Below, one piece after another: positions 39,988 through 57,896 of a stretch of 64,000 nucleotides of DNA. Origin of the DNA: Sphingobium aromaticiconvertens (GTDB lineage: Bacteria > Pseudomonadota > Alphaproteobacteria > Sphingomonadales > Sphingomonadaceae); the NCBI RefSeq assembly GCF_037154075.1, contig NZ_JBANRJ010000001.1, forward strand, positions 124,001 to 188,000. The letters run 5' to 3'. The position numbers and the translations under genes are program-made. Position 1 is the first letter of the stretch; each line of letters opens with the position of its first letter. Under the pieces are notes generated by a model. It was not told where the DNA came from and searched no databases. It saw nothing but the letters and a program-made list of their open reading frames with translations.

Positions 39988-40853
39988 GCGGCATCCTCTT
40001 TACGCAGGGCGTTGGCCGCCCGTGCTTTTTGATAGTCGCGGCTTTCGACAAGGAAATCGCACAGCGCGAAGGCCGCGTTGACGGCCAGCTTGGCGTGATG
40101 CCGCGCGGGATTGAAACGGCGGGCGTGGCGGTCGCTGCCCTTGTTGGCCATTTCGTAAAGCCCGCCGATCAATGTCTGGAAGCCGCCCACAATCGGCTTC
40201 AGCGGCTCCTCAAGCTTAGCGGGATCAAGGTTCAAGGACGGCTGCAATGCCCTGTAGAGCGCCCTGATGTCGCCTTCGGTTTCCTTGAATGCTGTGCCCG
40301 TTTCCGTGAGCAAGAGCTTCAAAAGGTGCTCAACCAAGGTGTAGGCGTTGGTGATCGCGCCGGAGAAATCGCCGGACTCGATTTTCTGGTTGGCCTTGCG
40401 CACCTGCTCCGTGATGGCCTCGTGGCTGATGGCGACGAGGCTCGTCGGTGCCAAGACATTCTGCCCGAGCGGGCGAACTTCAAAGCCCGGATTGATCCTG
40501 ACCTCTTTGTCCCCTTCCATCCAGCCGTAGTCATCCTTGATGGTAAGCCGGAAACCATCGCGAGAAAGGATTTGATTGAACTGATATGCGACGTCCTCGG
40601 CATTGAAACCATCCTCGCCGATAAAATCAAAGGCGGCGGACACGATCCCCTTCATCGTGTCCGTGCCGTTGAACTTGTCCAGCTTGGCACGCGCGAATTG
40701 AGCGCGGGACGGGAAGCCCTGCCCGTAGAGGTCGCCTTCTCCGAAATCGTTGAAGAAACCGACAAGCTGCGGGCCGGAACGGTAGGGGCTTTTCTGGGAA
40801 TCGCCGGTGATGATCCCGGTCAGATGTTCAAGGGATTTGGCGGTCAACCTCAT
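39984..40853 (-). CDS. Abortive-infection family protein (Abi C-terminal-like domain)
   Basis: 289-residue soluble protein, inserted between hsdS and hsdR. The C-terminal half (about 150-260) has SGAITNAYTLVEHLLKLLL, a long helical stretch and NKGSDRHARRFNPARHHAKLA, resembling the conserved Abi_C domain. The N-terminal half (about 1-120) has DTMKGIVSAAFDFIG and resembles no family I can name. Genes of this type are often found inside type I loci. Its ATG overlaps the hsdS stop and its stop overlaps hsdR, so it is made together with the restriction enzyme. A phage-triggered toxic role is plausible but unproven. Confidence 0.72.
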   Translation of the reverse strand: MRLTAKSLEHLTGIITGDSQKSPYRSGPQLVGFFNDFGEGDLYGQGFPSRAQFARAKLDKFNGTDTMKGIVSAAFDFIGEDGFNAEDVAYQFNQILSRDGFRLTIKDDYGWMEGDKEVRINPGFEVRPLGQNVLAPTSLVAISHEAITEQVRKANQKIESGDFSGAITNAYTLVEHLLKLLLTETGTAFKETEGDIRALYRALQPSLNLDPAKLEEPLKPIVGGFQTLIGGLYEMANKGSDRHARRFNPARHHAKLAVNAAFALCDFLVESRDYQKARAANALRKEDAA

Positions 40854-42148
40854 GCCCGCATGGCCTCCTCGATCCGCTCAAGGCGGCGGTCCGTCTGACC
40901 TTGCTTACCCCAAGTCGTTACGTCGATCTGTCCGGTCACGACAGCGGTGATGAGCGCGGTGCGGAATTCCTCAAGTCGGGCAATCGACTGCTCTGTTTTT
41001 CTCTTCAATCGTCGCTCGAAATCGACCGCTTGCTCAACGGCCTTTTGCAACTCCGATCCGGGAACGGGGATTTTCTCTTTTCCAAGGCGGCGCACGTTCA
41101 GGGGCCGGTTACGACCAGCCGAACCTCTCGATGCTTCGTTGAGAAGGAAATCACCGTAGCTGCTCCGTAGGAGGCCGAGCAAATAGGAGGTGTTAACCCC
41201 GGACTTGCCCCGATAAACGGGGTAACGGTGCGAAACGACGCAGCCTTCTTCCTCGGCGGTGGCGAGGGCGGCTGCACCCTCCCATGCGAACTGGCCGCTA
41301 AGGATAAGGTCGCCAGACTCGACGAAGAAGAACTCGGAATCGCCCATGCCTTCTTCGTCGGCGGCGGGCTTTTTGAAGATACCGCGCCCCCGGTTATAGA
41401 GGCCAAGCCGAACCAGCTCATCGTGCTCGGACAACGTGACGGGGCGCGAAACGCGCTGCGTCAGGTGTTCAAATCGTATGCGTGGAACATTGGCATCGGA
41501 AATTGCTTGGTCCACAAGCGCCTCAATCCGACATGCCACGCTCATCCCGAAGAGGCGCTTCTTCTCGATCAACCGGTTGATACGGGCGGTTTCGCGACCG
41601 AGGAAATCGGCAATGGACATCTGTTCCGATAAAGGAGGCAGAAGCACGAGAACTTGACGAAAATGCTCCCAGTAGAGTCGCTGGCGGAAATCAGCGATAC
41701 CCTTCGACGCCCTGCGCAAGTCTTCGATCCATATTGGAGTGCGCAGCAGATACTCAAAGTATGGAGCATGAAGCTTACGAGTAGGTCGAGCCACTACATA
41801 GGCGGGACTGACAAGCCCGTCTAACTTTGCTACGCCAAGCGCGCCCTGCCAAGCGCGCATCATATTGTAGACGAGATCACCAGGACGAACACGCTTGTAG
41901 GAGTTTTTGTCGTCGATTTGGTTTACAATGCGGTGCCTGTCATCGTCGTTTAGTTCCCGATCCGAAATACCCCAGTTTATTGAAACTGAAAGGACAGGTA
42001 GCCCGTCCTGTCCCATCTCTTGCGACTCTCGAAAAAGGGTCGCTATTCGCAAGACGTCCCAATGAGAAGGAGCTTTGGTCAATGCATCAAAGCCCCTTAC
42101 TTCGGTGTGGGCCAGATCAAATTTGACCATTTGCCGAGGGCGCGTCAC
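40850..42148 (-). CDS. hsdS: Type I restriction specificity subunit S
   Basis: Gives DNA target specificity to the HsdM and HsdR subunits. 432 residues with two target-recognition domains, each followed by a conserved helix: FRQVLVLLPPLSEQMSIADFLGRETARINRLIEKKR in the middle and KIPVPGSELQKAVEQAV plus SIARLEEFRTALITAVVTGQIDV at the end. The TRDs are the variable part, so the recognised sequence cannot be predicted. Its ATG overlaps the hsdM stop by 4 bases. Confidence 0.93.
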   Translation of the reverse strand: MTRPRQMVKFDLAHTEVRGFDALTKAPSHWDVLRIATLFRESQEMGQDGLPVLSVSINWGISDRELNDDDRHRIVNQIDDKNSYKRVRPGDLVYNMMRAWQGALGVAKLDGLVSPAYVVARPTRKLHAPYFEYLLRTPIWIEDLRRASKGIADFRQRLYWEHFRQVLVLLPPLSEQMSIADFLGRETARINRLIEKKRLFGMSVACRIEALVDQAISDANVPRIRFEHLTQRVSRPVTLSEHDELVRLGLYNRGRGIFKKPAADEEGMGDSEFFFVESGDLILSGQFAWEGAAALATAEEEGCVVSHRYPVYRGKSGVNTSYLLGLLRSSYGDFLLNEASRGSAGRNRPLNVRRLGKEKIPVPGSELQKAVEQAVDFERRLKRKTEQSIARLEEFRTALITAVVTGQIDVTTWGKQGQTDRRLERIEEAMRA

Positions 42149-44169
42149 GCCGCCACCTCTTGCAAAAGTCCCGCGATCTCCGCCTCCAACGCCTTCAGCT
42201 CTGCGTCGATCTCGCCCAGCGGGCGCGGCGGGGTATACCGGTAGAAATAGCGGTTGAAGTTGATCTCGTAGCCGACGCGGCCAATTTCGCGATCGCGGGC
42301 GTCACGGTAGAATTCGTCCACCCAGGCATCGGGAGCGAAGGGCGCCACCTCGCGAGTCACATACTCGCGCCAATCCTCTTTCAGCGGCACAAGCTCGTGG
42401 TCGCGCAAGTCGGTATCTGGTTGGGGATTGCCGTCCTTGTCGGTGCAGATGTCAGCTTCCTCGTCACGCTCGGACAGTGCCGTAAGGATCGCCTTCTTGA
42501 CCGGCCCGGCGATCTTCACGCCCTCGGCTTTGAGCGCCTTGGCCAGTGCCTTCTCGAAGGCGTTGCGGTTGGTGAAGAGCGCGTCGCCCATCGCCAGTAA
42601 GGCGACCTCGATCTCTTCCCGCTCCTCTTCAGGCAGGCGCGCATACACCTTCTCATCGGCAAGGCGAGCGATGCGTTCCTGACTCGCCTGAAAATTCAGG
42701 CGCAACGGACGTTCGACGCGGATTTCCCGATAACCGAAGTCGGTAACGTCGAAAATCTTGGCGACATCGCCTTCGCCGCTACCGCCATTCAGGAAGCCCT
42801 CGTAGATGTGCACGATGTCGGCGCGTCCCTTTTCGGAAATTTCCCGCCGCTTGGAACCAAGCGACTTGCGCATGGAGCGCCAGAACCGCTCGCCGCTGGC
42901 GTTGATCAACTGCACCTTACCCCGGCGATTGGCGGGTTTGCGGTTGGTCAGCAACCACACATAGGTCTGGATGCCGGTGTTATAGAACAGGTCGGTCGGC
43001 AGGGCGACAATCGCTTCGACCCAATCATTCTCGAACATCCATCGGCGGATTTCGCTTTCACCGGACCCGGCTCCGCCCGTGAACAGGGGCGAGCCGTTCA
43101 TGACGATGCCGATGCGCGAGCCGATTTCATCATCACGCATTTTCGAGATCATGTGTTGCAGGAAAAGAAGCTGGCCATCGGAGATGCGCGGTGTCCCCGC
43201 GCCGAAACGGCCATCGAAGCCCAAGCTGTCGGCTTCGCCCTTGATCGCGTCTTGATACTTTTTCCAGTCCACACCGTAGGGCGGGTTGGACAGCATGTAG
43301 TGGAATCGCTTGTCCTTGTGGGCGTCCTGCGTGAGCGTGTTGCCGAAGGCGATCTGCTCGGGATCGTGGCCCGTCACGAGCATGTCGGATTTGCAGATGC
43401 CGAAGGATTCGCCGTTCAATTCCTGCCCGAACAATTCGACGCGGATTGAGGGGTTGAACTCCTGCAAGGCGGCTTCGGTGAGCGCGAGCATACCGCCCGT
43501 GCCGCAAGCCGGATCATACACCTGTCGGATAATGCCGCGCCCGGTCAGCTTGGTGTCGTCGTTGGCGATCAGCAAATCAACGATCAGGCGGATCACTTCG
43601 CGCGGGGTGAAGTGCTCACCCGCCGTCTCGTTGGAGATTTCCGAGAAGCGGCGGATCAGTTCCTCGAAGAGATAGCCCATCTCGATATTGCTGACGACAT
43701 CGGGGTGCAGGTCGATCTCGGTGAAACGCTCAAAGACGTTCCAGAGGATGCCGCCCTCCTTGAGCCGCTTGAGTTGGTCGGTGAACAGGAACTTGTCGAG
43801 GAAGATGTCGCGGACATTGGCCGAAAACTTGGTGATATAATCGACCAAGTTGGCGTGAAGCTGGCCGGGGTCTTGGCCCTTGAGGGTGGCCAGCGTGAAG
43901 CGGGACAGGTTGTAAACCTTCACATTGCCGCCCGCCGCGCCGAACAGGATCATATCCTGTGTGGCCTCGTCCACACCATCAGGCAAAGTTTCTGCAGCCT
44001 TGAGCACGGCCTCCTTCGAGCCTTCAAGAATGCAATCGAGGCGACGGAGAACTACGAATGGTAGAATAACCTTACCATATTCTGATTGCTTAAAGTCCCC
44101 TCGCAAAATTTCTGCGATTGACCAAGCAAAGCTGCTGAGCCGCTGAACGGCAGCATTATCATACGGCAT
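42145..44169 (-). CDS. hsdM: Type I DNA methyltransferase subunit M
   Basis: Adenine-N6 methyltransferase. 674 residues: N-terminal helical domain (RLSSFAWSIAEILRGDFKQSEYG), SAM motif I YDPACGTGGML (about 217-227), catalytic motif IV LSNPPYGVDW (about 292-301), C-terminal helices that bind HsdS. It is the first gene of the restriction operon, so methylation would be made before cleavage. Its start overlaps the last 11 bases of an antitoxin-type gene. Confidence 0.95.
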   Translation of the reverse strand: MPYDNAAVQRLSSFAWSIAEILRGDFKQSEYGKVILPFVVLRRLDCILEGSKEAVLKAAETLPDGVDEATQDMILFGAAGGNVKVYNLSRFTLATLKGQDPGQLHANLVDYITKFSANVRDIFLDKFLFTDQLKRLKEGGILWNVFERFTEIDLHPDVVSNIEMGYLFEELIRRFSEISNETAGEHFTPREVIRLIVDLLIANDDTKLTGRGIIRQVYDPACGTGGMLALTEAALQEFNPSIRVELFGQELNGESFGICKSDMLVTGHDPEQIAFGNTLTQDAHKDKRFHYMLSNPPYGVDWKKYQDAIKGEADSLGFDGRFGAGTPRISDGQLLFLQHMISKMRDDEIGSRIGIVMNGSPLFTGGAGSGESEIRRWMFENDWVEAIVALPTDLFYNTGIQTYVWLLTNRKPANRRGKVQLINASGERFWRSMRKSLGSKRREISEKGRADIVHIYEGFLNGGSGEGDVAKIFDVTDFGYREIRVERPLRLNFQASQERIARLADEKVYARLPEEEREEIEVALLAMGDALFTNRNAFEKALAKALKAEGVKIAGPVKKAILTALSERDEEADICTDKDGNPQPDTDLRDHELVPLKEDWREYVTREVAPFAPDAWVDEFYRDARDREIGRVGYEINFNRYFYRYTPPRPLGEIDAELKALEAEIAGLLQEVAA

Positions 44170-44750: not shown

Positions 44751-46493
44751 TCACAATTCCAGTCCCGCGCTCCGGCCCTTCCGCACCTTTCTAGGCCGCT
44801 CTGGCGTTCTTTCCTTTGGCGTCAGCCCCCTCGGCGCGCTCTGCGCCCTGCTGACACCCCTACTGGCTGCTCCCGTTTGCCTGATCGCCTCAAGCAGCGG
44901 ATCGGAAAAGGTGGTGCGGATGCCATGAACGCCTGCGAGCTGGGCCACGTCGCGCCGGAATTCTTCGCTCCCTCGCACGTCCAGCGTCTGCCCATCGAAC
45001 CTGTCAGCGGCCAATGCCAGGGCGACGAACGCCGCGCCGATTGTTGCTCCGCTCGCCTGCACATGGCTGGCCCGGTCCACGACAAGGCCACCGTCCGCCG
45101 TCCGGTAGGACATAGCGCCGTTCTTGCTAGCGACGGCCTTTAAGCTGTCGAGAATGATGATCTTAGCCCTGTCGGCCCGCTCGGCGGTCAGAAGGTCACC
45201 ACGCACCTTTTCGGCGCGTTCGGCTCTCGACCGCAAAACGCCCAACGCCTCGACGTCGCCAACCTCGGCACGGGCAGCGAGCCAATCACTCCAGATAGGC
45301 AAGGTCGTGGCCCCGATTAATGCCTTCCGCTTCGCTGCTGCTATGCTGGCGATCTCGGCCCGCCGGGCATTCGCCTGTGTCGATATGGTCGCGCCTATCG
45401 TGCGCCGGGCAAGGCCACGGGCGGCGACCCTCGCAATTGCCCGCTGGGCTGCACACCAATGGAGCAGCGCGCGCCGCCGCTCGTCGCTCTCGCTCCGGAT
45501 CGCAGCTAAGCCGCCCCTACGGGTAGCGATGGCGGCCTGACGCTCCCGCTGATACTCAGTGAACAGATTTACGCTCGACGGGTGCCGGTGCCGTGGTCCC
45601 GGCGTGTAGCCCTGCCGCGCTGACCGGGACTGGCTTTGATCGGCCTCGTACAGCCCCAGCCGGTCGGTCAGCGCCTTGGCCGATAGATCGCGGCCCGCAT
45701 CGCTGGCCTTGCACCAAACCCCTTGCCGGGCATCACCGATAACAAAACCTGCGCCACGCGGTTTGATCTGCAAACCATGCTCGGACATCGCTGTATGAAG
45801 CTCCTGCCAACTGGCCGCCGCCCGTATCGCCGGGGCCACGGTGCGCGTGATATGGCTCGCAAGGCTTTCGACGCCTGCATGGGCCTCCATGTCACCGATC
45901 CGATCAACGCGGCTCCGATCTGACCGGGCATAGGCTTTCCCCTCGGTTAGTCCGTGATTGGTGTGGGCGAGTCCGTGCTTGATTTCTAGGCGCTCGCACG
46001 CCTCCATAAGCCGCTGCTTGTCATAAAATGGCTCGATGTTTTGCAGGCCGGTCGGGTGAACCTTGCTGATGGCGACATGGACATGCAAATGATCCGTGTC
46101 CTGATGCACCGCGCTAATGCGATGATGGTCGGCAAAACCGATGGCCGCGCAAAGCTCGTCCTCGATGGCGTGCAGCACCTCTAGCGGCGGCTGTTCTCCC
46201 GGCGGGAAACTGAAAACGAGGTGATAGGTCTTGTTGGCCTTGCTGCGCGTATTGGCCGCCTGCATGGCCTCAATGATCGTCGTGGCCTGCGCCGGGTCAT
46301 CGGTTCCGCAATTCGTGACGCGGTAGGTGGCGACCTTCTCGCCCTGCGTCGTCGTCTTTTTGGTGTCGAGAATATAGTCGGCGGTGCGCGCCCAGCTTTC
46401 CGGTTCGATCCCCCCTTGCGCCGCCACCATGTAACGGACAAGCCGCGCCGGACTGGACGTGCCTTTGGTCCGGGCAATGCGCTTGGCGATCAT
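44751..46493 (-). CDS. MOB-P-type relaxase (TraI/MobA family)
   Basis: Nicks oriT and pilots the strand during transfer. 580 residues from the ATG at 46493, coupled to mobC by an ATGA overlap. The N-terminal relaxase domain has a candidate nucleophile Tyr in ARLVRYMV (about 21) and the metal-binding motif HQDTDHLHVHVA (about 129-140). The middle part has EYQRERQAAIATRRGG and long helices, then a C-terminal domain with AVASKNGAMSYRTADGG, as in large relaxases of this group. The last 40 residues are Arg/Pro-rich. The longer frame upstream is mobC in another frame. Confidence 0.9.
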   Translation of the reverse strand: MIAKRIARTKGTSSPARLVRYMVAAQGGIEPESWARTADYILDTKKTTTQGEKVATYRVTNCGTDDPAQATTIIEAMQAANTRSKANKTYHLVFSFPPGEQPPLEVLHAIEDELCAAIGFADHHRISAVHQDTDHLHVHVAISKVHPTGLQNIEPFYDKQRLMEACERLEIKHGLAHTNHGLTEGKAYARSDRSRVDRIGDMEAHAGVESLASHITRTVAPAIRAAASWQELHTAMSEHGLQIKPRGAGFVIGDARQGVWCKASDAGRDLSAKALTDRLGLYEADQSQSRSARQGYTPGPRHRHPSSVNLFTEYQRERQAAIATRRGGLAAIRSESDERRRALLHWCAAQRAIARVAARGLARRTIGATISTQANARRAEIASIAAAKRKALIGATTLPIWSDWLAARAEVGDVEALGVLRSRAERAEKVRGDLLTAERADRAKIIILDSLKAVASKNGAMSYRTADGGLVVDRASHVQASGATIGAAFVALALAADRFDGQTLDVRGSEEFRRDVAQLAGVHGIRTTFSDPLLEAIRQTGAASRGVSRAQSAPRGLTPKERTPERPRKVRKGRSAGLEL

Positions 46494-46849
46494 TTGAGCG
46501 CCCGTCGCATGGTGGCCGATAGCTCGGTTTGAAGCTCCCGAAATTCGTTCATCATTTTTTCGACCTCGGCGGGCTTCGCACCAAACCCGCGCCAATCGGC
46601 TAACCACAATTTCAGCAGACCAGCGACCCGGCCCAAATCGCCATTAACCCGCCCAAGGTCAGCAACGGCTTTTAGGTCATAGACGGACCGGACCGGATGA
46701 TTGAGGCCCGCCGCCCGCAAATAGGCGGACTGTGACATGCCCGTCTGCGTGGCGCGGGCGGCGATCTCGGCGCGCTCCTCGTCCGTCGCCCACACCTTTA
46801 CCGGCGTTCCGCGTGGCCGGGTATTTTCCTTTTTGGTGCTGTCACTCAT
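46490..46849 (-). CDS. mobC: Relaxosome accessory protein MobC (TraJ-like)
   Basis: 119-residue ribbon-helix-helix protein that would bind oriT and help the relaxase melt it. PVKVWATDEERAEIAARAT is the DNA-binding start; LNHPVRSVYDLKAVADLGRVNGDLGRVAGLLKLWL is the MobC family core. The ATG at 46849 has GGAGG about 9 bases upstream. It directly precedes the relaxase and follows the oriT candidate. Confidence 0.88.
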   Translation of the reverse strand: MSDSTKKENTRPRGTPVKVWATDEERAEIAARATQTGMSQSAYLRAAGLNHPVRSVYDLKAVADLGRVNGDLGRVAGLLKLWLADWRGFGAKPAEVEKMMNEFRELQTELSATMRRALK

Positions 46850-46941
46850 GCGCCGTGCGCCTCCTTCCGGTTCCGTCGCGGCGGCGACCGTGAGCCTCGC
46901 AGAGCAAGATTCCGTCGAGCCGCAGGCGAGTAAGAGACTGC

Positions 46942-46991
46942 ATTGTGGGTCCGCGTGACTTCGCCGCGTGGGCCTACAATGCACATCTTGC
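46942..46991 (+). other. oriT candidate (IncP-like inverted repeat plus nic-like site)
   Basis: An imperfect inverted repeat (arms 46942-46957 and 46965-46980; 12 of 16 positions match, and the four mismatches are all transitions at every third base) is followed 3 bases later by CATCTTGC (46984-46991). In IncP-type origins a TraJ-binding repeat likewise precedes a nick site of the YATCYTG|Y type. Its place just upstream of mobC-relaxase fits. The nick position is inferred. Confidence 0.6.
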
Positions 46992-47102
46992 CGTCTGCAT
47001 GAATGCAATTCTATGCGAAGGTCTGCAATTTAAGCAATAGAGAAGTTGATTTTCAAACTTATGCGGAGTTTTGCAGAGTTTTGCATTATGTATCGCGTAT
47101 GT

Positions 47103-47276: not shown

Positions 47277-47492
47277 ATGGCACGGAAAAACCTCAACGAC
47301 CGACGAGCGGCAGCGCGGCGGGAGCTTGAGGAAGCCCAAGCGAAATTCGCCAAGCTGCAAAATGAGGCGGCAGCGCGAATTGGCAAATTGGCCGTCAGGA
47401 CAGGTCTGACTGATCTCGATCTATCCGATGACGAAATCAAATCAACATTCGAGGGAATAGTCGCCCGCAAGGAACAGGAGAATATCTTATGA
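47277..47492 (+). CDS. TraC/TraD-like small conjugal transfer protein
   Basis: 71-residue, highly charged protein. The pattern of a basic N-terminal helix (MARKNLNDRRAAARRELEEA) followed by ARIGKLAVRTGLTDLDLSDDEI resembles the small TraC/TraD proteins of Agrobacterium and sphingomonad plasmids, whose role is accessory in DNA processing. GAGGATTAGGGA precedes the ATG. It starts an operon leading to trbL. Confidence 0.7.
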   Translation: MARKNLNDRRAAARRELEEAQAKFAKLQNEAAARIGKLAVRTGLTDLDLSDDEIKSTFEGIVARKEQENIL

Positions 47493-47692
47493 AAGTCAAA
47501 CGCCGAATATCGGAACTAAGGCAATCCATTGTCGCCGTTCAGAGCGAATTGGGCAAAGGTCATATTACTGATGCCCAAGCCCTTGCCGCCGAGATTGACC
47601 GCGCGCTTGAGGAATGGAGCTTCGATCTGATGCGCATCCCACCCGATGAGCGGCAAAGCTACCGCTCACCAAACGCATATTATCACCACTGA
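47489..47692 (+). CDS. Hypothetical protein in the transfer operon
   Basis: 67 residues; ATGA overlap with the preceding gene shows translational coupling. Mostly helical, with ISELRQSIVAVQSELGKGHITDAQALAAEIDRALEEW and a Tyr/His-rich end (SPNAYYHH). I recognise no family. Position suggests a mobilization accessory. Confidence 0.6.
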   Translation: MKVKRRISELRQSIVAVQSELGKGHITDAQALAAEIDRALEEWSFDLMRIPPDERQSYRSPNAYYHH

Positions 47693-47715: not shown

Positions 47716-48468
47716 GTGACCAAGACATTGCGCTATCCGCTTTTCGCTACCGCGCTGGCCCTTTCGGTCGGCGGCGCTCTGCACACGTCGCCCGCATTGG
47801 CGCTGACGATCTATTGCACCAACTGCTCTACGACCTTCCAACAAGCCATCCAGACGGCCAAGGAAATTGAAACGGCGCTTAGCACTGCTGCCACGCTACA
47901 GAACCAAATCCAGCAATATAACGACATGCTCAAGCAGGGCATTTCCCTGCCATCGAGCATGTTCAACCGCATGACCGGCGATCTGCAACAACTTCAATCC
48001 CTGTATCAGCAGAGCAAGGCGCTGTCGGGCGGATTGACCGATTTCGATACGCGGTTCCGCAACCAATTCAGGGACTACGGCAGCTATTTGGCGCAGAGCG
48101 GCAAAAGCTCGTCCTACATGGCCGACAATTACCGGCGGTGGAATGAACAGGGGTTCGACTCCATGCGCGTTGCGATGCGCTCGGCAGGCATGAACGTGTC
48201 GTCAATCGCGGACGAAGATGCGGTTATGGCGCAACTGGTCCAGCGCTCGCAGACGGCACAAGGCCGTATGCAGGCGATTCAGGCAGGCAACGAAATTGCA
48301 GCCCAGCAGGTCCAGCAGATGCAGAAGCTGCGTCAGCTTATGAACGCGCAAATTCAGTCGCAAAGCCAGTGGTATGCGCAGCAGCTCGAACGCCAAACGG
48401 TCGATGATGCCGGTCGTCAACAATTCTACTCGGTGAAGTCCCGCCGAGGTGGCTCCAAGGAGTTCTAA
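47716..48468 (+). CDS. trbJ: TrbJ (VirB5-like) conjugative transfer protein
   Basis: 250 residues; signal peptide MTKTLRYPLFATALALSVGGALHTSPALA, then a helical periplasmic protein. The CTNCSTTFQQAIQTAKEIETALSTAATLQNQIQQYNDML segment is typical of P-type TrbJ. It is a minor pilus or tip component in complete systems. GTG start at 47716 with GGAGA upstream. The C-terminus SRRGGSKEF nearly repeats that of the next small gene. Confidence 0.88.
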   Translation: MTKTLRYPLFATALALSVGGALHTSPALALTIYCTNCSTTFQQAIQTAKEIETALSTAATLQNQIQQYNDMLKQGISLPSSMFNRMTGDLQQLQSLYQQSKALSGGLTDFDTRFRNQFRDYGSYLAQSGKSSSYMADNYRRWNEQGFDSMRVAMRSAGMNVSSIADEDAVMAQLVQRSQTAQGRMQAIQAGNEIAAQQVQQMQKLRQLMNAQIQSQSQWYAQQLERQTVDDAGRQQFYSVKSRRGGSKEF

Positions 48469-48470
48469 TC

Positions 48471-48650
48471 ATGATGATTTCGAAAGCGATCCTGATCGCG
48501 ATCATCGCCGTCTCTGGTGCAATGGGTGCGTTGGCAACTTCCTTGGTGGTGTCTCGTCCTTCCGACGTCGATTGCGTTCCAACCATGCAAGACGGGACTG
48601 CCTTTCAGCCAAACGTCAAATCGAGACGTGGCGGCGCGGTGGAGTTCTAA
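48471..48650 (+). CDS. Small membrane-anchored protein in TrbK (entry exclusion) position
   Basis: 59 residues, 2 bases after trbJ, with AAGGAG before the ATG. A hydrophobic N-terminus (MMISKAILIAIIAVSGAMGALATSLVV) is followed by a short periplasmic part with one Cys (SDVDCVP) and the tail KSRRGGAVEF. In IncP plasmids trbK, between trbJ and trbL, encodes the entry-exclusion lipoprotein. Order and size fit, but no classical lipobox is visible, so the assignment is by position. Confidence 0.65.
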   Translation: MMISKAILIAIIAVSGAMGALATSLVVSRPSDVDCVPTMQDGTAFQPNVKSRRGGAVEF

Positions 48651-48652
48651 TC

Positions 48653-50182
48653 ATGAAAAGGGCAATGATCTTTGGTGCTGGGTTCCTCCTTCTGGCCACG
48701 GCCGGGGCGGGGGAAGCTCTTGCACAAACTGGCGCTTTGCAGGAGCCGGATACGGCAATTCAAGGCCTTCTGCTAATGATCCAAAATTCGGCAAATAGCT
48801 GGGACGGACGACTGCAAGGTTACGCAACATCTCTATTCTGGTCACTTGCTGCAATTCAATTCGTGATTACGTTCTTTCCGTTAGTCATGAAAAACGCCGA
48901 CTTTGGGGAAATTGTCGGTGAGCTTGTCCGTAGTGTTCTAGTGATCGGCTTTTTTGCTGCTCTACTCATGTATTCACGCGATTGGGCAAGTGCGATTGTC
49001 GATAGTTTCCGGGAAGCCGGAGCACAGGCGTCTGGTTTGGGCAAAGGCCTTAAACCCGGTGACATGTTTGCAACGGCGGTGAATCTCGCCGAGACAATGT
49101 CTCCGGCTACATGGAACCCCATCACGGCGGTTGGCATTGCCCTATCCGCACTTCTGGTTCTGCTTTGCTTCGCCTTCATCGCCGCGTTCATGTTCGTAAC
49201 GCTCGTTGAATCCTATATCGTCATCAATGCATCGGTCCTGTTCATGGGCTTTGGCGGTTCGCAATGGACCCGTGATTATGCGTTGGCGATCCTGCGTTAT
49301 GCGGTGTCGGTCGGCGCAAAGCTGTTTGTGCTAACTCTGATCGTCGGCCTCATCGTCCAGTCAGCAGCCCAATGGAAGGCGGCCTATACCGCCGACAATG
49401 CTTCCATGCTGACCATGGTCGGCCTCGCTTTGGTGTGCGCCTATCTGGCGAAAACCATCCCTGACCTTATTCAGGGCCTTATCGGCGGCGTTTCTCCGAG
49501 TGGTGGTGGAACGATCGGCTCCATGGCAGCAATGGCGCTTACTGGCGGCGCCGGCCTCGCTGTTGGTGCTACTGCTGCTGCTGCAACGGGTGCGGCGAGT
49601 GCTGCTGGAGGAGGCGCGGCGGGTGGTGCGCCCTCCGGTGGTCTTGCTGGCCTCCTGAACAATAGCATCATGGGTGCGGGCCGGGCCGGGCCCGCCGGTG
49701 GCGTTTCCGATGGCATATCAGCGGCGGCGCGCTCTGCGGGGCAACGAACTGGCGGCGGTGCATCCACTAGCCCGACAAATCGTGCTGGCGGCGCAAGCGC
49801 AGCGTCACAAGCCATAAAACACGCGACCAACACGGATGAGGGCAAAGGCACCGCGCAAAAGGAGCATGATAGCAACGCCGGGGCCTCTGGTTCTGGATCG
49901 GTGAACACCAAAACGGTAGATTCTGCCGCAAGCGGATCTACCGTGGGGTTGGCAACCAGCCTTTCCGCAGTTGGTCGAGGGTTGGGGGTGATGTCGGCCA
50001 TATCCGTGCCCGGCATGGAAAACGCTGCTTATGCTGGCTCGCCCGCCCCTTCCTCCCCACTGGAAGCCCCGTCATCAGACGATTTAAAGGGCGAGGCGGC
50101 TCCCCCTGATCCGGTGAACACCATTCAGCCCGCCGCCGATCAATCTCTTCCCACGAAAGCGGCCATGCCGCCAAAGGAGTAA
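48653..50182 (+). CDS. trbL: TrbL (VirB6-like) inner-membrane transfer protein
   Basis: 509 residues. After a signal-like start (MKRAMIFGAGFLLLATAGAGEALA) come several membrane helices (SLFWSLAAIQFVITFFPLVM, SVLVIGFFAALLMYS, IALSALLVLLCFAFIAAFMFVTLVESYIVINASVLFMGFGGS and others to about 300). The C-terminal third is a Gly/Ala/Ser-rich tail, as in many TrbL proteins. In full systems it lines the inner-membrane pore and is the target of entry exclusion. The ATG is preceded by GGAG in the end of the previous gene. Confidence 0.9.
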   Translation: MKRAMIFGAGFLLLATAGAGEALAQTGALQEPDTAIQGLLLMIQNSANSWDGRLQGYATSLFWSLAAIQFVITFFPLVMKNADFGEIVGELVRSVLVIGFFAALLMYSRDWASAIVDSFREAGAQASGLGKGLKPGDMFATAVNLAETMSPATWNPITAVGIALSALLVLLCFAFIAAFMFVTLVESYIVINASVLFMGFGGSQWTRDYALAILRYAVSVGAKLFVLTLIVGLIVQSAAQWKAAYTADNASMLTMVGLALVCAYLAKTIPDLIQGLIGGVSPSGGGTIGSMAAMALTGGAGLAVGATAAAATGAASAAGGGAAGGAPSGGLAGLLNNSIMGAGRAGPAGGVSDGISAAARSAGQRTGGGASTSPTNRAGGASAASQAIKHATNTDEGKGTAQKEHDSNAGASGSGSVNTKTVDSAASGSTVGLATSLSAVGRGLGVMSAISVPGMENAAYAGSPAPSSPLEAPSSDDLKGEAAPPDPVNTIQPAADQSLPTKAAMPPKE

Positions 50183-50184
50183 CC

Positions 50185-50475
50185 ATGTCCAATCTTGTTT
50201 CCTTCCTCGTTCAGATGACCTTGTTCTCCGTGCTGTGCGTGACGCTGCTGGTCATCTTCTATCACCTCGTTCATTGGCTTCGCGAACGTGGCCACGGCCC
50301 CAAGCTGGATGCCTTTGCCAACTGGCACGCGCGGGCGTCGCGGCAAGGCGCTATCCATGCGCTGCGAACCTTGCGAGGTATCCATTCGATGCCATTCTAT
50401 GGATCGCGGAAGCAGCGGGAAACTTTCGACATGATGCTGGTGCGAGTGCAGCGAGAAGATGACCCCCGGCAATGA
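50185..50475 (+). CDS. Small membrane protein after trbL, unknown function
   Basis: 96 residues; AAGGAG before the ATG, 2 bases after trbL. One strong membrane helix (LVQMTLFSVLCVTLLVIFYHLVHWL) followed by a basic cytoplasmic tail (SRQGAIHALRTLRGIHSMPFYGSRKQRE). I recognise no family. Its place at the end of the trb block suggests a role with TrbL or in exclusion. Confidence 0.65.
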   Translation: MSNLVSFLVQMTLFSVLCVTLLVIFYHLVHWLRERGHGPKLDAFANWHARASRQGAIHALRTLRGIHSMPFYGSRKQRETFDMMLVRVQREDDPRQ

Positions 50476-50483
50476 CACCTGAC

Positions 50484-50514
50484 GGCCCCGCACATGATTG
50501 CGGGGCCATTTTCG
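50484..50514 (+). terminator. Intrinsic terminator of the transfer operon
   Basis: Perfect 8-bp arms GGCCCCGC (50484-50491) and GCGGGGCC (50500-50507), followed by ATTTTCG. It closes the traC/D-trbJ-K-L unit. Confidence 0.82.
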
Positions 50515-50529
50515 TATAAGATCAGAGCC

Positions 50530-50739
50530 ATGACCGAACATAAATTCAACCGCTACGATTCCGCCGACTATCTCGACAGCGAGGCGACCATTGCCGCTTA
50601 TCTCGATGCAGCGAAGGGCGAGGGCGGCGACGATCCGGCCTATATGGCGCATGTCCATGGGGTCGTAGCCAGAGCGCGCGCCAGCACCGGGGCAACCTCA
50701 ACCGCAAGCGAGACGGAGCCGAAACCCTCTAACGGTTGA
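50530..50739 (+). CDS. Truncated addiction-module antidote-like protein
   Basis: 69 residues. The start MTEHKFNRYDSADYLDSEATIAAYLDAAKGEGGDDPAYMAHVHGVVARARAS matches the N-terminal half of the HigA-like antidote family. In the family a helix-turn-helix follows; here the frame instead reads TGATSTASETEPKPSNG and stops, so the DNA-binding half is lost or frameshifted. No partner toxin is adjacent. It may be a decaying remnant or a short interacting domain. Confidence 0.55.
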   Translation: MTEHKFNRYDSADYLDSEATIAAYLDAAKGEGGDDPAYMAHVHGVVARARASTGATSTASETEPKPSNG

Positions 50740-51262: not shown

Positions 51263-52294
51263 TTAGCTACAGGCGCGACGTTTCCGCGCTTTCCGTGCAT
51301 GGGCCTTCTCATGCGCAATCACTGGCGCGTGAGGGCGTCCAGCCAACATATCCTTGGCCTCAGCCACCCGGCCTTTCGGGCCATAGGCGTAGAACGTAAC
51401 CATGTCCCGTGCCGGATCGTAGGACATCAGGTAATCAGGCAAATGGCCGGACTCGACCAGCGCTCGCACGTCTTCACGAAAGTTGCGCAGCGGTGATGCG
51501 CTGCCACTCTTATGGTGGAGCACTGCCAGTGAGATTCGCCAGTTTGGTTGTGTGCCGCAGTGCTTCCGCGCCAACTCGTAGATGCGCCTCTCCAGCGGCT
51601 TCCGCAGGCGGAAGTAGTCGCGGTTCAAGGTTAGCACGTGCATAGCTTCAACGGACCGGAACAACCAGTCTGGCAACGTCACCTCGACAGCAACCATACG
51701 GTTGCTACGGTCGTGCTCGACTACCTTGGCAGAGTCCACAAGTCCGAAGAAGCCCCGTTCGCGCCTGCCTGCCGTTTCAATGTTTGTTTCAATGCGCGTC
51801 CCGGTAAGCCGTGCCAGCATCTCACCCATTCGGATATAAGCCCGACCGCTCGTGTCGCGGTTTGTGGCGCGGAGGAAATCGTAAGCTTTGAAGCGCACCA
51901 CGCGCGAGACTTCCTGCCCCGCGTTCCTCGCCTCGATCATCTGGCTGATGCAGTAAATCCACAAATCCTTGTCGTGGATGGTTGCGCAGCCATCATGACC
52001 GGGCTTCACGGTGACGGTGCAGCCGTTGCGCTCGTAGGTTCTAACGCGGCTGTCGCCAGCTTTCAGCGCGAATAGCGGATGCTCCATGCTGGCCATATCA
52101 CCCTTGGGTGCAGCGTCCAGTATGTCGGCTACGAAGAAATCACATTGCGAGGTGCGGTTCGGCGCAAGGCGGGGCGTTCCCTTGCGCGCTATGCTCTGCC
52201 CCGCAGGCCTGCCATCAGCTATGCCTTCATACGGATCAGCCCGCGAAAGTTCCGGTGCCCGATTGGTGAAGGCCGCTAGCTCGTGGACCGCCAC
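51263..52294 (-). CDS. repA: Replication initiator protein RepA (RPA type)
   Basis: Plasmid-type initiator of up to 343 residues. DMASMEHPLFALKAGDSRVRTYERNG and DKDLWIYCISQMIEA are characteristic of the replication initiator A family, followed by two winged-helix-like halves (RATNRDTSGRAYIRMGEMLARLTGTRIET and LTLNRDYFRLRKPLERRIYELARKHC) and a Lys/Arg-rich end. The real start may be internal (Met at about 65-69), since the first part is poorly typical. Iterons and a DnaA box lie just past its 3' end. Confidence 0.85.
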   Translation of the reverse strand: MAVHELAAFTNRAPELSRADPYEGIADGRPAGQSIARKGTPRLAPNRTSQCDFFVADILDAAPKGDMASMEHPLFALKAGDSRVRTYERNGCTVTVKPGHDGCATIHDKDLWIYCISQMIEARNAGQEVSRVVRFKAYDFLRATNRDTSGRAYIRMGEMLARLTGTRIETNIETAGRRERGFFGLVDSAKVVEHDRSNRMVAVEVTLPDWLFRSVEAMHVLTLNRDYFRLRKPLERRIYELARKHCGTQPNWRISLAVLHHKSGSASPLRNFREDVRALVESGHLPDYLMSYDPARDMVTFYAYGPKGRVAEAKDMLAGRPHAPVIAHEKAHARKARKRRACS

Positions 52295-52338: not shown

Positions 52339-52551
52339 TCAGGCAGCAATGCCGGGGCGTGCGGCTTGAGCGCCTGATGCCTTGCGCGCTTCAATCCATT
52401 CTTCGATCTCGGCCAAATCCCACGCGACACTGCGGCTCGTGAGGGCGATGCGGCGGGGGAACTCTCCGCGCTGCTCCATGTTATATATCGTCCGCTCGGC
52501 CAGCGGGATCATGGCGTGGAGTTTCTTGCGGTTGATGAGTGTCCTATTCAT
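52339..52551 (-). CDS. AlpA-family transcriptional regulator
   Basis: 70 residues from the ATG at 52551; MerR-like winged helix: MNRTLINRKKLHAMIPLAERTIYNMEQRGEFPRRI and SVAWDLAEIEEWIEAR. AlpA proteins activate excision or act as excisionase-like factors in P4-type elements. Its place between rep and the integrase region fits such a role. The extension to a GTG at 52662 is less likely. Confidence 0.85.
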   Translation of the reverse strand: MNRTLINRKKLHAMIPLAERTIYNMEQRGEFPRRIALTSRSVAWDLAEIEEWIEARKASGAQAARPGIAA

Positions 52552-52647
52552 CGGCAATGGCACGTTCCGGCCCCTTTCAGTCACTTGCAAAGCTGTGCCT
52601 GATGGTGCCCGCCAATTCAGGTTGTGTCGGTCGAATAATTGGCTAAA

Positions 52648-53238
52648 ATGGTTGACATGCACATTCCCTCAATCGCCATCTGGGAGGGTTGCGATCCGAC
52701 AGTATCCGCCGCGATCATGCGGTTTCAGGATCGTTGGCGGCCATCCTCCGGCGACAAACACAGTGTTCGACTAATAGAGGAACTCGTTGACCCTGCCGTT
52801 TCGGCATACACGGCGGTGCTTCCACAGCGATACTTGAACTACGTCCCCGGCATCGCGACGGGAGCAGGCTTTGGTAAAATCGTTCAGTTGGTGGGGTTGG
52901 ACGCGACAGCCCGTCAGCAGCGCAGATTGCTGATGGCATTTACCTCTACGGAGGACAGACGATCCGCAATGGACGAGCGGTTTGTCGCGACGCTCGAATC
53001 TCTGATTGGGTTAGTCGGTGCCTGCGTCCGAAAGCGGCCAACTAAAGCCAAGGTGCGCGATACGCGCTTGAATAGGAGGCGCGTGGAAGGGTTCTGCCGG
53101 TGTTGCGGTGCACTGGCGGAGTTGCCTGCATTTTCAGAAGGAAGCGATAGCCCCAAGGCGGATGATCCAGAGGACAAGCTGCGGCTTATACCAAGGGGCG
53201 CTGGTTCTGACTCACGTTTGAGATTCCCAAGAGGCTGA
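52648..53238 (+). pseudogene. 5' part of a zinc-finger/HTH gene split by IS630
   Basis: The reading frame from about 52648 (TTG at 52639 and ATG at 52657 are alternatives) codes for a protein with a CRCCG motif near residue 150; after 53188 it reads into the IS. Joining 52648-53188 to 54357-54799 restores one frame of 328 codons (stop included), with CxxC paired to YCSNHRP downstream. The function is unknown; it is divergent from alpA. The intact form probably bound DNA or RNA. Confidence 0.8.
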
Positions 53239-53276: not shown

Positions 53277-54337
53277 ATGGCGGCGGCGATTGGGGTTCGA
53301 ACTGACTACACATCAACGGATTTGCGTGGCTTTGCCCGACGATGCGGTGATGGGGACCAGGTGCGTCGTTTATTGGCGGTGGCTCTGATCCTGGACGGCG
53401 GGAACCGTAGCGATGCAGCGAAGTTTGCCGGGGTGACGCTGCAAATCGTGCGCGACTGGGTCGTGCGGTTCAATGAGGGCGGCCCTGACGGTCTGGCAAC
53501 GCGCAAGGCCCCCGGACGGACGTCGATCCTGAACGACGAACAGCGCGCCAAGCTTGCCGAAATCGTCGAGACAGGGCCTATCCCGGCGGCGCATGGTGTC
53601 GTGCGCTGGCGTCTATGCGATCTGGCGCAGTGGATCCGGGACGAGTTCCAATTGTCGGTCACGCGTCACACGCTTGGAAGAGAGCTTCGCGCGCTGGGGT
53701 ATCGCAAGATCACGGCGCGGCCCCGCCACCGTGGCCAGAAACCCGATGATATCGCCATTTTTAAAAAGAGTTCGCTGCCTGTCTGGAGCAAATCAAACGA
53801 GGCCTCCCGAAAGGCACGCCCCTAGAATTATGGTGGCAAGATGAAGCCCGCATCGGTCAGCAGACCAAGCTCACCCGGCGCTGGGCAAAGCGCGGCACCA
53901 GACCCTCAGCGCCAAAAGACCAACGGCGATCATCGGCCTGGCTCTTTGGGGCGATTTGCCCCGCAGAAGGCAAAGCAGCAGGCATCGTCATGCCCAGGTG
54001 CAACAGTGAGGCAATGAGTATGCACCTTGACGAAATTGCCTTCCATGTCGCGCCCGGTGCTCATGCCGTGTTGCTTCTCGATCAAGCCGGATGGCACGGC
54101 TCTGCAGAACTCGTCGTTCCGCCCAACATCACTCTGATGCCGCTGCCGCCCAGATGCCCTGAGTTGAACCCGGTCGAGAATGTCTGGCAATTTATGCGAG
54201 ACAACTGGCTCTCAAACCGCATCTTCAATTCTTACGACGATATCGTCGATCACTGCTGCTACGCCTGGAACAAGCTCGCAGAACAGCCTTGGCGCATCAT
54301 GTCCCTGGGACTACGTCAATGGGCACATGGGTTCTAA
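53277..54337 (+). CDS. IS630-family transposase, two frames joined by -1 shift
   Basis: The first frame (53277-53825) gives the N-terminal HTH domain (RRLLAVALILDGGNRSDAAKFAGV) up to ARPRHRGQKPDDIAIFKK. The second frame begins with EFAACLEQIKRGLPKG and holds the catalytic DDE: WWQDEARIG, LLLDQAGWHGS and CPELNPVENVW, ending WAHGF at 54337. The frames meet at TTTTTAAAAAG (53758-53768), where a -1 shift joins them exactly. This is either programmed frameshifting, known in some IS630 members, or an inactivating deletion. Confidence 0.82.
53758..53768 (+). promoter_or_regulatory. Slippery run TTTTTAAAAAG (frameshift site)
   Basis: Five T then five A and G lie exactly at the junction of the two transposase frames. 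Slipping back one base at AAG continues into the catalytic frame with GAG-TTC-GCT. The P-site match is imperfect. Confidence 0.55.
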
Positions 54338-54808: not shown

Positions 54809-56029
54809 CTAATCTTCGCTCCTACTTGCAGGCCGCATCCGCCCAAGCGTCCATTCGTCGATCATATCCGCCCAGTCTTGCAGCATCGCCGTGCGTTGCT
54901 CGCGGTATTCGGCCTTGTTGTAGACGGCCCTGACGCCCCTCTGCTCGTGCGCAAGGCACTTTTCTATCCAGTCAGTGTTGTAACCCGCTTCGTGCAGAAG
55001 CGTGCTGGCCGTGCGCCGCAAATCGTGCGGGCCGAACTTGCCGAGCGGCTTTCCTTCCTTTTGGGCGAGCCTGTATGTCTGCGTCAATAGCCGGTTAAGC
55101 GTGGCACTGCTCATGGGTTCGTCGGAATCATAACGCCCCGGCAACACATAGTCTGATCCGCCCGCAAAGGTTTTCAGAGCAATGAAGATGTCCAGCGCCT
55201 GTCTGGATAGGAACACCAAATGCGGATTACGCCGCTTCATCCGTTCTTTCGGGATCGTCCAGAGTGCCTTGGTGAAATCGACCTCATCCCATTTCGCGTT
55301 GGTCAGTTCGCCCTTGCGCACCATGGTCAGCAGCAGCAGCTTGGCCGCTGCCCGGAAGGATGGCGCGGTGCCGATCCGTTCCATATATTGATACATCAAG
55401 CCGATTTCATCGGGCGTTAGGGCGCGGTCGCGCGGCTCGAATTTGGCGATGGTTGTCGGGCGGACCAGTTCTGCCGGGTTCTCGACCTTCTGGCCGCGCT
55501 CGATGGCCCAACGATAAACCTGGAAAACAACTTCACGGCTATGCACTGCCGTCGCCGGTGCGCCCCGCTCCACGATAGTATCGGTCAGCGCGCGCAAATC
55601 CTCATGGGTGATTTCTGCCAGCTTCTGATTGCCGAATTTCGGCTTCAATTCGCGCTCGAAAACCGAACGGCGCATATCACGCGTGGAATCGGCCATCTGG
55701 TAGCCGCGCAGCCATTTTTCGGCCCATGCTCCAAATGTCTCGGCATCCTTGACGCGGGCCTTGTCCCTCGCCTTCTCCTTGGCAGGCGACTTCCCTGCCG
55801 CAACCATCTTCTTGGCTTCGCCCAACCGTTCACGGGCTTCCGCTAAAGTGATGCCGCCAACGCCGTAGCGGCCGAAGGTGACGGTCTCCTGCCTGCCGTG
55901 GATGGCGTAGTTATACCGGAACGAGATCGACCCGGCGGGCGTGACAGCCACATAGAGGCCGTCGCGATCATTCACCTTGTAAAGCTTGTCCGTTGGCCTG
56001 AGGTTCCGCAGCTTGGTATCGGTCAGCAT
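54809..56029 (-). CDS. int: Tyrosine integrase (P4/DUF4102 type)
   Basis: 406 residues: an N-terminal arm-binding domain (LTDTKLRNLRPTDKLYKVNDRDGLYVAVTP), a core-binding domain, and the catalytic domain with Arg in MVRKGELTNAKW (about 236), HDLRRTAS (about 333-339), CLAHE and Tyr in VYNKAEY (about 370). All catalytic residues are present. It points away from guaA with its promoter facing the att site, the usual arrangement. It should drive integration at, and excision from, the guaA 3' end. Confidence 0.93.
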   Translation of the reverse strand: MLTDTKLRNLRPTDKLYKVNDRDGLYVAVTPAGSISFRYNYAIHGRQETVTFGRYGVGGITLAEARERLGEAKKMVAAGKSPAKEKARDKARVKDAETFGAWAEKWLRGYQMADSTRDMRRSVFERELKPKFGNQKLAEITHEDLRALTDTIVERGAPATAVHSREVVFQVYRWAIERGQKVENPAELVRPTTIAKFEPRDRALTPDEIGLMYQYMERIGTAPSFRAAAKLLLLTMVRKGELTNAKWDEVDFTKALWTIPKERMKRRNPHLVFLSRQALDIFIALKTFAGGSDYVLPGRYDSDEPMSSATLNRLLTQTYRLAQKEGKPLGKFGPHDLRRTASTLLHEAGYNTDWIEKCLAHEQRGVRAVYNKAEYREQRTAMLQDWADMIDEWTLGRMRPASRSED

Positions 56030-56336: not shown

Positions 56337-56351
56337 TCATTCCCACTCGAT
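56337..56351. repeat. attR-like repeat in guaA 3' end
   Basis: TCATTCCCACTCGAT, which on the minus strand encodes I-E-W-E-stop of guaA. It is identical to 36143-36157. Confidence 0.88.
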
Positions 56352-57896
56352 CGTCCCGGGCGGCTTCGACGTATAGTCATAAACCACCCGATTGATGCCC
56401 TTCACCTCGTTGATGATGCGGGTCGCAACGCGACTGAGGAAAGCCGCATCAAAGGGATAGATGTCCGCCGTCATGCCATCGGTCGAGGTTACAGCCCGCA
56501 CGGCGCACACGCTGTCATAGGTGCGATGGTCGCCCATCACCCCGACCGTGCGGACCGGGAGCAGCACGGCGAAGGCCTGCCAGATCGCGTCATAAAGACC
56601 CGCGTTGCGGATTTCCTCCAGATAGACGGCATCTGCCTTCCGCAAGATGTCGCAACGCTCCTTGGTGACTTCGCCGGGGATGCGGATGGCGAGGCCGGGG
56701 CCAGGGAAGGGATGACGTCCCACAAAAATATCGGGCAATCCCAACTCTTTGCCCAGAACGCGGACCTCATCCTTGAAAAGCTCGCGCAGTGGCTCGACCA
56801 GCTTCATGTTCATGCGTTCGGGCAGGCCGCCGACATTATGATGGCTCTTGATCGTGACGCTGGGTCCCCCAGTGAAGGACACCGATTCAATGACGTCGGG
56901 GTATAGCGTCCCCTGTGCCAGAAAATCGGCGCCGCCGATCTTCGCGGCTTCCTCTTCGAACACGGCGATGAATTCACCGCCGATGAATTTGCGCTTCTTC
57001 TCCGGGTCGGTGAGGCCCGCAAGGCCGCCCAGGAAGCGTTCTTCCGCGTTCACATGGACCAGCGTGATGCCATAATGTTCGCGGAACAGAGAGACCACCT
57101 GCTCCGCCTCGCCCAACCGCATCAGGCCATGGTCGACGAACACGCAGGTCAACTGGTCGCCAATCGCCTCATGGATCAGCACGGCGGCGACGGCGCTGTC
57201 AACGCCGCCGGACAGGCCGCAGATCACGCGCCCCTTGCCCACCTGCGCACGGATTTCGGCAATCTTCGTCTCGCGGAATTCGGCCATCGTCCAATCCCCG
57301 GCAAGGCCGCAGACATGGCGCGCGAAATTGGCGATCAGTTTGCCACCATCGGGGGTGTGAACCACTTCAGGATGGAACTGGGTGGCGTAGAAGCGCTTGG
57401 CTTCGTTGGCGGTGACGGCGAAGGGCGCACCCTCGCTGGTGGCGACAACCTCAAACCCCTCGGCGAGTTGCGTCACCTTGTCGCCATGGCTCATCCACAC
57501 TTGATGCCGGTCGCCGGGCTGCCACAGGCCGTCGAACAGGGCGCAATGTTTGTGCACCTCGATGAAGGCGCGGCCGAACTCGCCGCTCTCGCCGCCTTCC
57601 ACATTGCCGCCCAGTTGCTGCATCATCGTCTGCTGACCATAGCAGATGCCGAGGATCGGGATGCCCGCATCAAAGATCGCCTGTGGCGCGCGGGGGCTAT
57701 CCTCCCACATGACCGACGATGGACCGCCGGAAAGGATGACGCCCTTGGGCTGCATCCGCGCAAAGGCTTCGGCGGCGGTGTTGAACGGGGCGATCTCACT
57801 ATAGACCCCCGCTTCGCGAACACGGCGGGCGATCAACTGCGTCACCTGGCTGCCGAAGTCCACGATGAGGATGGAATCCTGAATGGGCAGCGTCAT
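56337..57896 (-). CDS. guaA: GMP synthase (glutamine-hydrolysing)
   Basis: Makes GMP from XMP with glutamine and ATP. 519 residues: class I amidotransferase domain with the catalytic Cys in [12 protein letters not shown] and His/Glu in [15 protein letters not shown]-pyrophosphatase loop [15 protein letters not shown]-terminal dimerisation domain ending [14 protein letters not shown]. The coding end is the integration site of the element, and insertion left the protein intact. The 3' end of guaA is a known hotspot for genomic islands. Confidence 0.97.

Follow-up and report, generated by a model that had tools for sequence, protein, structure and literature searches.

Matching TrbJ and TrbK tails in an isolated trbJ-trbK-trbL block on a mobilizable element of Sphingobium aromaticiconvertens

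A stretch of 64,000 nucleotides from Sphingobium aromaticiconvertens (the window; RefSeq assembly GCF_037154075.1, contig NZ_JBANRJ010000001.1, positions 124,001 to 188,000 of the forward strand) contains a mobilizable element of about 20 kb inserted at guaA. The element carries an isolated block of conjugation genes consisting of trbJ, a small gene in the trbK position, trbL and one more small gene. The C-terminal ends of TrbJ and of the trbK-position protein are alike within an element and differ from element to element; in the window they read SVKSRRGGSKEF and NVKSRRGGAVEF. This match of tails is a strong sequence pattern that was replicated in loci chosen independently of it. The literature searched, which left subscription papers mostly outside, does not state it. 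The match thus appears to be new beside the published idea that such islands exchange pore subunits, its priority being uncertain.

The block is made up as follows (positions in the window).

47716-48468, + strand: trbJ (VirB5, pilus-tip type), 250 residues, tail SVKSRRGGSKEF resembling that of the next gene; TIGR02780, E 4.9e-64, above cut-off
48471-48650, + strand: trbK-position gene, 59 residues, tail NVKSRRGGAVEF; recognized by its place between trbJ and trbL, its hydrophobic start and the tail match
48653-50182, + strand: trbL (VirB6 type), 509 residues; TIGR02783, E 1.5e-80; PF04610, E 2.7e-26
50185-50475, + strand: gene of 96 residues 3' of trbL; 27% identical over 66 residues to its pKPN-704 counterpart, which is positioned alike
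50484-50507, + strand: terminator-like hairpin ending the block; a 9-pair stem, then T-rich ATTTTCGTAT

The first-pass annotation had described trbJ, the small gene in the entry-exclusion position and trbL as the only T4SS genes of the element, followed by one for a small membrane protein and all with open frames, and this is what was found, at the coordinates that it gave. The strong terminator that it added is borne out as to the hairpin and the T-rich run, but such sites are no commoner in the region than in shuffled sequence (2 found against 3.9). When transfer proteins from pKPN-704, pE and R751 were compared with the element by tblastn, matches were obtained for TrbJ, TrbL, the 96-residue protein, the relaxase, TraJ and RepA. 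TrbB, TrbC, TrbD, TrbE, TrbG, TrbH, TrbI, VirD4 and TraK gave no match at E 1e-2, a search that could miss a very divergent TraK. One match of 39 residues to TrbF (E 6e-4) falls within hsdM and looks like chance. The ATPases, core complex and coupling protein of a self-transmissible P-type (MPF_T) system were not found in the element.

The 59-residue protein had no Pfam match up to E 1, and its single NCBIfam match lies far under the cut-off. It has no lipobox-like motif within its first 40 residues, unlike RP4 TrbK with its lipoprotein signal; such a motif is found in 21 of 50 non-redundant trbK-position proteins. Judged by its position between trbJ and trbL, its hydrophobic start and its tail match, it is probably the entry-exclusion protein. 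A TrbJ profile found no related solved structure (best E 0.019, by name a coiled-coil design), and the AlphaFold model of TrbJ has a mean predicted local distance difference test score (pLDDT) of 52.7, too poor for a fold search. The model suggests that the TrbJ end is non-helical after a last helix at residues 181-239.

Tails were scored by local alignment of the last 30 residues of TrbJ with TrbK. The 95 TrbJ/TrbK pairs collected were reduced to 89 by dropping L021, L023, L125 and L132, whose small-gene calls were judged wrong by eye after they had been seen, and the duplicates L078 and L175, and then to 50 that are non-redundant at 70% TrbJ identity. L006, which has a frameshifted trbJ, was retained as a failure in this scoring; it was excluded from the tail correlation, the TrbL co-variation and the nearest-system comparison given below, and L021 was also excluded from the correlation. 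The 50 matched pairs had a mean score of 42.5 against 20.2 for mismatched ones, and 0 of 20,000 permutations scored as high. The signal is concentrated in the 30 systems with a short TrbK, a class delimited post hoc (55.1 against 19.9; 0 of 20,000 permutations), and in 23 of these the element's own TrbK scored highest. Because the last codons may hold the ribosome-binding site of the next gene, the final 5 residues were also removed from both proteins; the scores were then 36.2 and 17.9, again with 0 of 20,000 permutations. Four internal segments of TrbJ served as controls. With these the own TrbK ranked highest in between 0 and 2 of the 49 or 50 cases, and 1178, 1471, 727 and 50 of 2000 permutations scored as high, the last belonging to the segment 120-150 residues from the TrbJ end, which shows a slight excess (18.3 against 17.3).

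The pattern was then scored in a held-out set of 23 new loci, chosen before their tails had been seen and left unsplit by class. No TrbJ was found in 7 of them, L196 has no small gene, and the TrbJ of L213, L214 and L197 is at least 70% identical to an earlier one, which leaves 12 usable non-redundant pairs. These scored 58.9 matched and 19.5 mismatched (0 of 20,000 permutations), with the own TrbK first of 62 in 9 of the 12 and among the first three in 11. Of the 42 short-class and held-out pairs together, 35 have a best local alignment that runs to the C-terminus of both proteins, and 33 have an end-anchored score above the 95th percentile of the mismatched pairs. Where tail residues are identical, the two genes share the codon in 128 of 237 cases, 110 being expected if codons were independent; outside a single locus, L171, they do so in 111 of 220 against 98.7 expected. 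The likeness is thus maintained mostly at the protein level. In L171 the tails of the two proteins are nearly identical over 29 residues, with the same codon at 17 of 17 counted residues, which looks like a recent copy.

The tails of isolated blocks also differ from those of full systems. In the last 14 residues, the TrbJ of isolated loci is 20% identical to that of the nearest full system while the bodies have an identity of 0.70 (n=31); for full systems compared with their nearest full system the values are 45% and 0.69 (n=94). In L026 and pKPN-704, for example, the bodies are 81% identical and 1 of 14 tail residues is common. The identities of the TrbJ tails and of the TrbK tails correlate with r 0.93, or 0.80 after accounting for the bodies, over 561 pairs, not mutually independent, drawn from 24 islands and 10 plasmids. 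Among 34 related loci the part of TrbL that best tracks the TrbJ tail is columns 20-50, just behind the signal peptide, with a partial r of 0.48; the median of all windows of TrbL is 0.01, and the TrbK tail reaches 0.72. This exploratory result offers columns 20-50 as a possible lead to the partner of the tail.

Kin of the block were taken from one scan of GTDB genomes, which gave 30 loci encoding a relative of the window's TrbL. In 25 of them trbJ and trbL occur without trbB, trbE, trbF, trbG and trbI, and the solitary block is thus no accident of this window. Of the other five, four are full operons, some of them seen in part, and the fifth is a Bartonella contig with trbE. Isolated blocks were also found in 6 of 80 further TrbL loci (75 plus 5, among the matches listed), which brings the isolated loci to 31; contig or fetch ends truncate many of these. 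In 26 of the 31 an integrase with 77-95% identity to that of the window was found, and guaA was seen in 22. A relaxase match spanning half of the query or more was seen in 4, so that most of these loci look like GIsul2, an island without a relaxase. On a TrbL tree of 125 rows, made by a quick method and with several long branches flagged, the isolated label must have changed 6 times or more, and well-supported branches force 5 of these changes. The isolated blocks of RP4/R751-like type (L119-L121, L123, L127, L128) and of pSN1216-29-like type are thus of separate origin, and the same kind of integrase occurs with both (L119, L120, L127, L128 and most others). The type of the origin of transfer (oriT) follows the block type in 21 of 21 loci with a call, ten others being uncalled. 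The nic core ATCTTGCCG is present in 19 of the 25 isolated loci of pSN1216-29-like type, to which the window belongs, and ATCCTGCCC in 2 of the 6 of RP4/R751-like type (L127 and L128, the core of L127 having been assigned to the RP4 type by eye).

In eight pairs of closely related islands, chosen by hand, the ratio of nonsynonymous to synonymous substitution rates (dN/dS) was 0.09-0.21 for trbJ, 0.11-0.32 for trbL and 0.23-0.34 for trbK, except for one trbK pair at 1.31. Hence trbJ and trbL evolve under purifying selection. At least 2 of the 25 isolated loci, L006 and L008, have a trbJ frameshifted into two frames, which shows that single copies do decay. Two small MOBQ plasmids of Acinetobacter carry a similar set. 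L079 (6.8 kb) has a TrbJ-like gene that falls short of the TIGR02780 cut-off, a 48-residue gene and trbL, and L069 (5.8 kb) has trbL, a 48-residue gene and a trbJ of which only the end was seen. No other pore gene is listed for either, and they lie on a separate branch of the TrbL tree, that is, a separate capture of the set.

The structure of the element, the isolation of the block and its conservation in kin, the repeated origin of such blocks and the matching tails are observations, from which we infer how the block might work. On balance, and with little to spare, we favor the reading that it is a specificity cassette of an IncP-island-type mobilizable element and that the shared tail is an exclusion code. 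TrbJ would sit on TrbL and form the tip of the pilus. A helper plasmid would supply the remaining pore and the coupling protein, and the TrbJ and TrbL of the element would replace those of the helper. In the recipient, TrbK would display a copy of the TrbJ tail, take the site that the tail requires, for which the start of mature TrbL is a lead, and block entry, so that matching tails would mean exclusion. With tails unlike those of the nearest full systems, a pore bearing the island's TrbJ would escape the TrbK of the helper, and the island's own TrbK would keep out pores already bearing the island's TrbJ. The published background agrees with parts of this scheme (papers are cited here by PMC number). 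VirB5 is placed at the pilus tip on VirB6 (PMC12624023), and the R388 complex loses VirB5 without VirB6 (PMC5916273). pKPC_UVA01 cannot exclude without the C-terminus of TrbK, and the authors cite the same for IncP TrbK (PMC8923210). When RP4 transfer genes were tested in recipients, only trbJ and trbK conferred resistance to the killing by the pore (PMC11045733). A recipient TrbK that shows the TrbJ tail would account for the otherwise odd protection by TrbJ, and the tail model would also account for trbJ, trbK and trbL travelling together. The wider form of the proposal, drawn from comparison of sequences, is put forward tentatively: P-type systems with a short TrbK may exclude by tail mimicry, with the tail as a code of self and non-self, and islands and small mobilizable plasmids may have captured trbJ-trbK-trbL repeatedly, the island tails being recoded away from those of the helpers.

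Several results weigh against this proposal. The division into short and long TrbK was made after the data had been seen. The 20 long TrbK-alt proteins, mostly from systems of the integrative and conjugative element (ICE) type, show no preference for their own TrbJ (25.1 matched against 25.8 mismatched; 15,441 of 20,000 permutations as high) and are weakly above shuffled TrbK (25.05 against 22.1; 14 of 20). No tail match was found between TrbJ and TrbK of pKPC_UVA01, a plasmid with proven exclusion. Its TrbK also excludes IncP and IncN plasmids, and its trbK is needed in the donor too, which the model does not predict (PMC8923210); pKPC_UVA01 may be another kind of system. The R388 tails match weakly, in six end residues only (GMPTIQ and GMPKIR), R46 matches weakly and fails the end-anchored test, and L006, L014 and L210 score poorly. 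Finally, the loci are related, so the recoding of island tails rests on few independent events. In ICE-type systems (L129, L135 and L146, for example) an R(R)RF motif occurs near the TrbJ end and inside TrbK-alt; it is class-wide rather than pairwise.

Other explanations of the block and its tails were weighed against the same evidence. TrbJ and TrbL might be carried as a compatible pair because VirB5 and VirB6 must fit, with TrbK as an accompanying immunity and the tail as a shared signal for assembly or sorting rather than a code. The requirement for VirB6 to keep VirB5 in the R388 complex (PMC5916273), the need of pKPC_UVA01 transfer for trbJ and trbL and not for trbK (PMC8923210) and the agreement of oriT and block types in the 21 called loci all fit this. 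It leaves unexplained, however, why the shared tail varies among systems and is conserved pairwise between TrbJ and TrbK, and why island tails depart from those of the nearest full systems when the bodies do not, and it is considered unlikely. The likeness of the tails could instead be a by-product of a ribosome-binding site embedded before the next gene, together with duplication or gene conversion between neighbors. Both window genes do end in purine-rich codons directly before the next start, and the identical codons of L171 are of this kind, but the signal persists without the last 5 residues, codons outside L171 agree at close to the independent rate, and single tail matches extend back nearly 30 residues. 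Ribosome-binding sites or recent copying were thus rejected as the main cause, and the by-product explanation as a whole is judged improbable.

Two further explanations concern the block as a whole. Its genes might mainly shield the host from incoming P-type plasmids, with TrbJ and TrbK acting in the recipient and contributing little to the element's own transfer. In the RP4 killing assay recipients were protected by each of the two (PMC11045733), and restriction and AbiJ-like genes are part of the element's cargo. Such a role, which is likewise judged improbable, would not explain why TrbL, with no known role in the recipient, is kept under purifying selection, why relaxase and oriT are retained, or why the plasmids likely to invade have tails unlike those of the islands. 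The least probable explanation, and one that is largely refuted, is a functionless relic of a full trb operon that has lost the rest. The gene order of the block is that of the trbE-trbF interval of helper-type plasmids, and the frameshifts in L006 and L008 would suit decay; yet 25 of the 30 kin loci have the same minimal set, which also recurs across several TrbL lineages, with dN/dS well below 1 for trbJ and trbL in all eight pairs. The first-pass annotation had judged the block not to be debris and had named, as the contrary case, a block that is always a decaying fragment of a full trb operon. The isolation in kin and the selection on trbJ and trbL favor its judgment, the two frameshifted copies notwithstanding.

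The element itself fits the description of the IncP island, known from Brucella suis and Burkholderia glumae (Guedon et al. 2017, PMC5704250), and by sequence would be an ordinary member of that known family. Compared by published description, it shares a tyrosine integrase at the 3' end of guaA, its own MobP relaxase, TraJ, TrbJ, a small trbK-position gene, TrbL without the rest of the pore, and a RepA gene. It differs in that TraJ alone of the relaxosome pair was found, in having TraC-like 71-residue and 67-residue genes before trbJ, and in its cargo. GIsul2 shares the guaA site and trbJ-type genes but, unlike the window element, has no relaxase (PMC5704250). GIflu-1 also has the guaA site and trbJ-type genes, with an attachment (att) core GAGTGGGAAT that lies within the window's repeat on the opposite strand; it bears resistance genes and yielded no transconjugants under the conditions tried (PMC13418153). 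SGI1 is a mobilizable island with its own pore subunits, including a VirB6 homologue, and the swap disables plasmid exclusion; by description it differs in serving an F-type pore, in carrying TraN, TraG and TraH and in having no relaxase (PMC5704250). The same paper proposes that IncP islands, like SGI1, reshape the pore of the helper and invade plasmid-bearing cells, and extends the proposal to GIsul2. No test of this prediction was found in the literature searched. The first-pass annotation had arrived at a similar swapping of subunits by analogy with SGI1. With a block that is isolated, intact and under selection this would be the best available reading, but it is a published prediction rather than a new one.

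The full systems nearest to the block are those of broad-host-range plasmids of the pKPN-704, pSN1216-29 and pMBUI2 kind and of nitrifier plasmids, with TrbL 65-71% identical over about 240 residues. In the former the order trbE-trbJ-small-trbL-small-trbF contains the block of the island. pKPN-704, pE of Xanthomonas citri, pMBUI2 and pSN1216-29 share the order trbJ-small-trbL-small, with TrbL 65-69% identical over 243 residues, and pE has a nic core identical to that of the window; they differ in possessing a full trb operon and a coupling protein and in their TrbJ and TrbK tails. The IncP plasmid R751 has the order trbJ-trbK-trbL and matching tails (RASPARTW and KPSPKREW), while its TrbK is annotated as a lipoprotein, unlike the window's small protein without a lipobox-like motif. 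The P-type systems of sphingomonad plasmids, which the first-pass annotation had suggested as helpers, were ruled out as the nearest full systems: in other genomes of the genus TrbL reaches 39% identity at best, and three other TrbL genes of the host chromosome, in full trb systems with TrbK-alt-type genes (G000:C1, about 3.244, 3.394 and 4.651 Mb; L133, L129 and L138), are 31-35% identical. The host genome yielded no other TrbL closely similar to that of the window, and thus no cognate helper.

The remaining features of the element and its insertion site are as follows.

36143-56351 including both repeats: whole element, about 20.2 kb (about 36143-56336), bounded by the 15-bp TCATTCCCACTCGAT
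37000-44169, - strand: cargo, type I restriction-modification genes (hsdM, hsdS, hsdR)
39984-40853: AbiJ-like/HEPN gene, situated between hsdS and hsdR
44751-46607, - strand: MOBP relaxase, TraI type; NF041893, 478.7 bits, above cut-off; PF03432, E 1e-32
46490-47008, - strand: TraJ/NikA-like relaxosome protein; PF21983, E 6.9e-19; 62% identical over 100 residues to pKPN-704 TraJ; coordinates of the longest open frame, the real start being probably further in
46984-46990, + strand: nic-like core CATCTTG of the probable oriT, with a putative nick position; ATCTTGCCG core in kin
47277-47492, + strand: TraC-like protein of 71 residues; PF07820, E 4.1e-7, barely above cut-off; kin in other islands
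47489-47692, + strand: protein of 67 residues, no family above cut-off; kin in other islands, located alike
50494-50739, + strand: addiction-antidote-like protein; TIGR02684, 37.3 bits, below the cut-off of 53.7
51263-52294, - strand: RepA-type replication initiator; PF10134, E 1.2e-96
52339-52662, - strand: AlpA-like regulator; PF05930, E 1.6e-13
54809-56029, - strand: tyrosine integrase; PF00589, E 1.2e-22; PF13356, E 1.6e-19
56337-57896, - strand: host guaA (GMP synthase), the integration site; NF000848, 801 bits

The 15-bp repeat is exact and lies at 36143-36157 and 56337-56351, the latter at the guaA stop codon. The GC content of the element is 0.577, against 0.62 and 0.627 for its flanks within the window. 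The presence of a RepA-type initiator suggests that the integrated element, once excised, replicates like a plasmid. Two open frames at 53277-54337 resemble, by eye, an IS630-type transposase split in two. The TraC-like and 67-residue genes (47277-47692) recur between oriT and trbJ in several other islands. The ATCTTGCCG core of the probable oriT is also present in the plasmids L066, L067 and L073, while the pattern YATCCTG was tried as a marker of the window's oriT and does not mark it. L066 is plasmid pDS5 of Sphingomonas sp. DS-9, which bears sul1 and qac-type genes. Its mobilization region (about 6146-7205) matches that of the window with 79.5% identity across 1 kb and has a nic core of the window's kind.

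The tail pattern may explain how plasmids recognize and exclude their own kind. The matching tails name at once a candidate for what TrbK recognizes, in a stretch short enough to be testable. If the proposed mechanism is true, it would account for the presence of just trbJ, trbK and trbL on mobilizable elements, and exclusion groups might become predictable from sequence.

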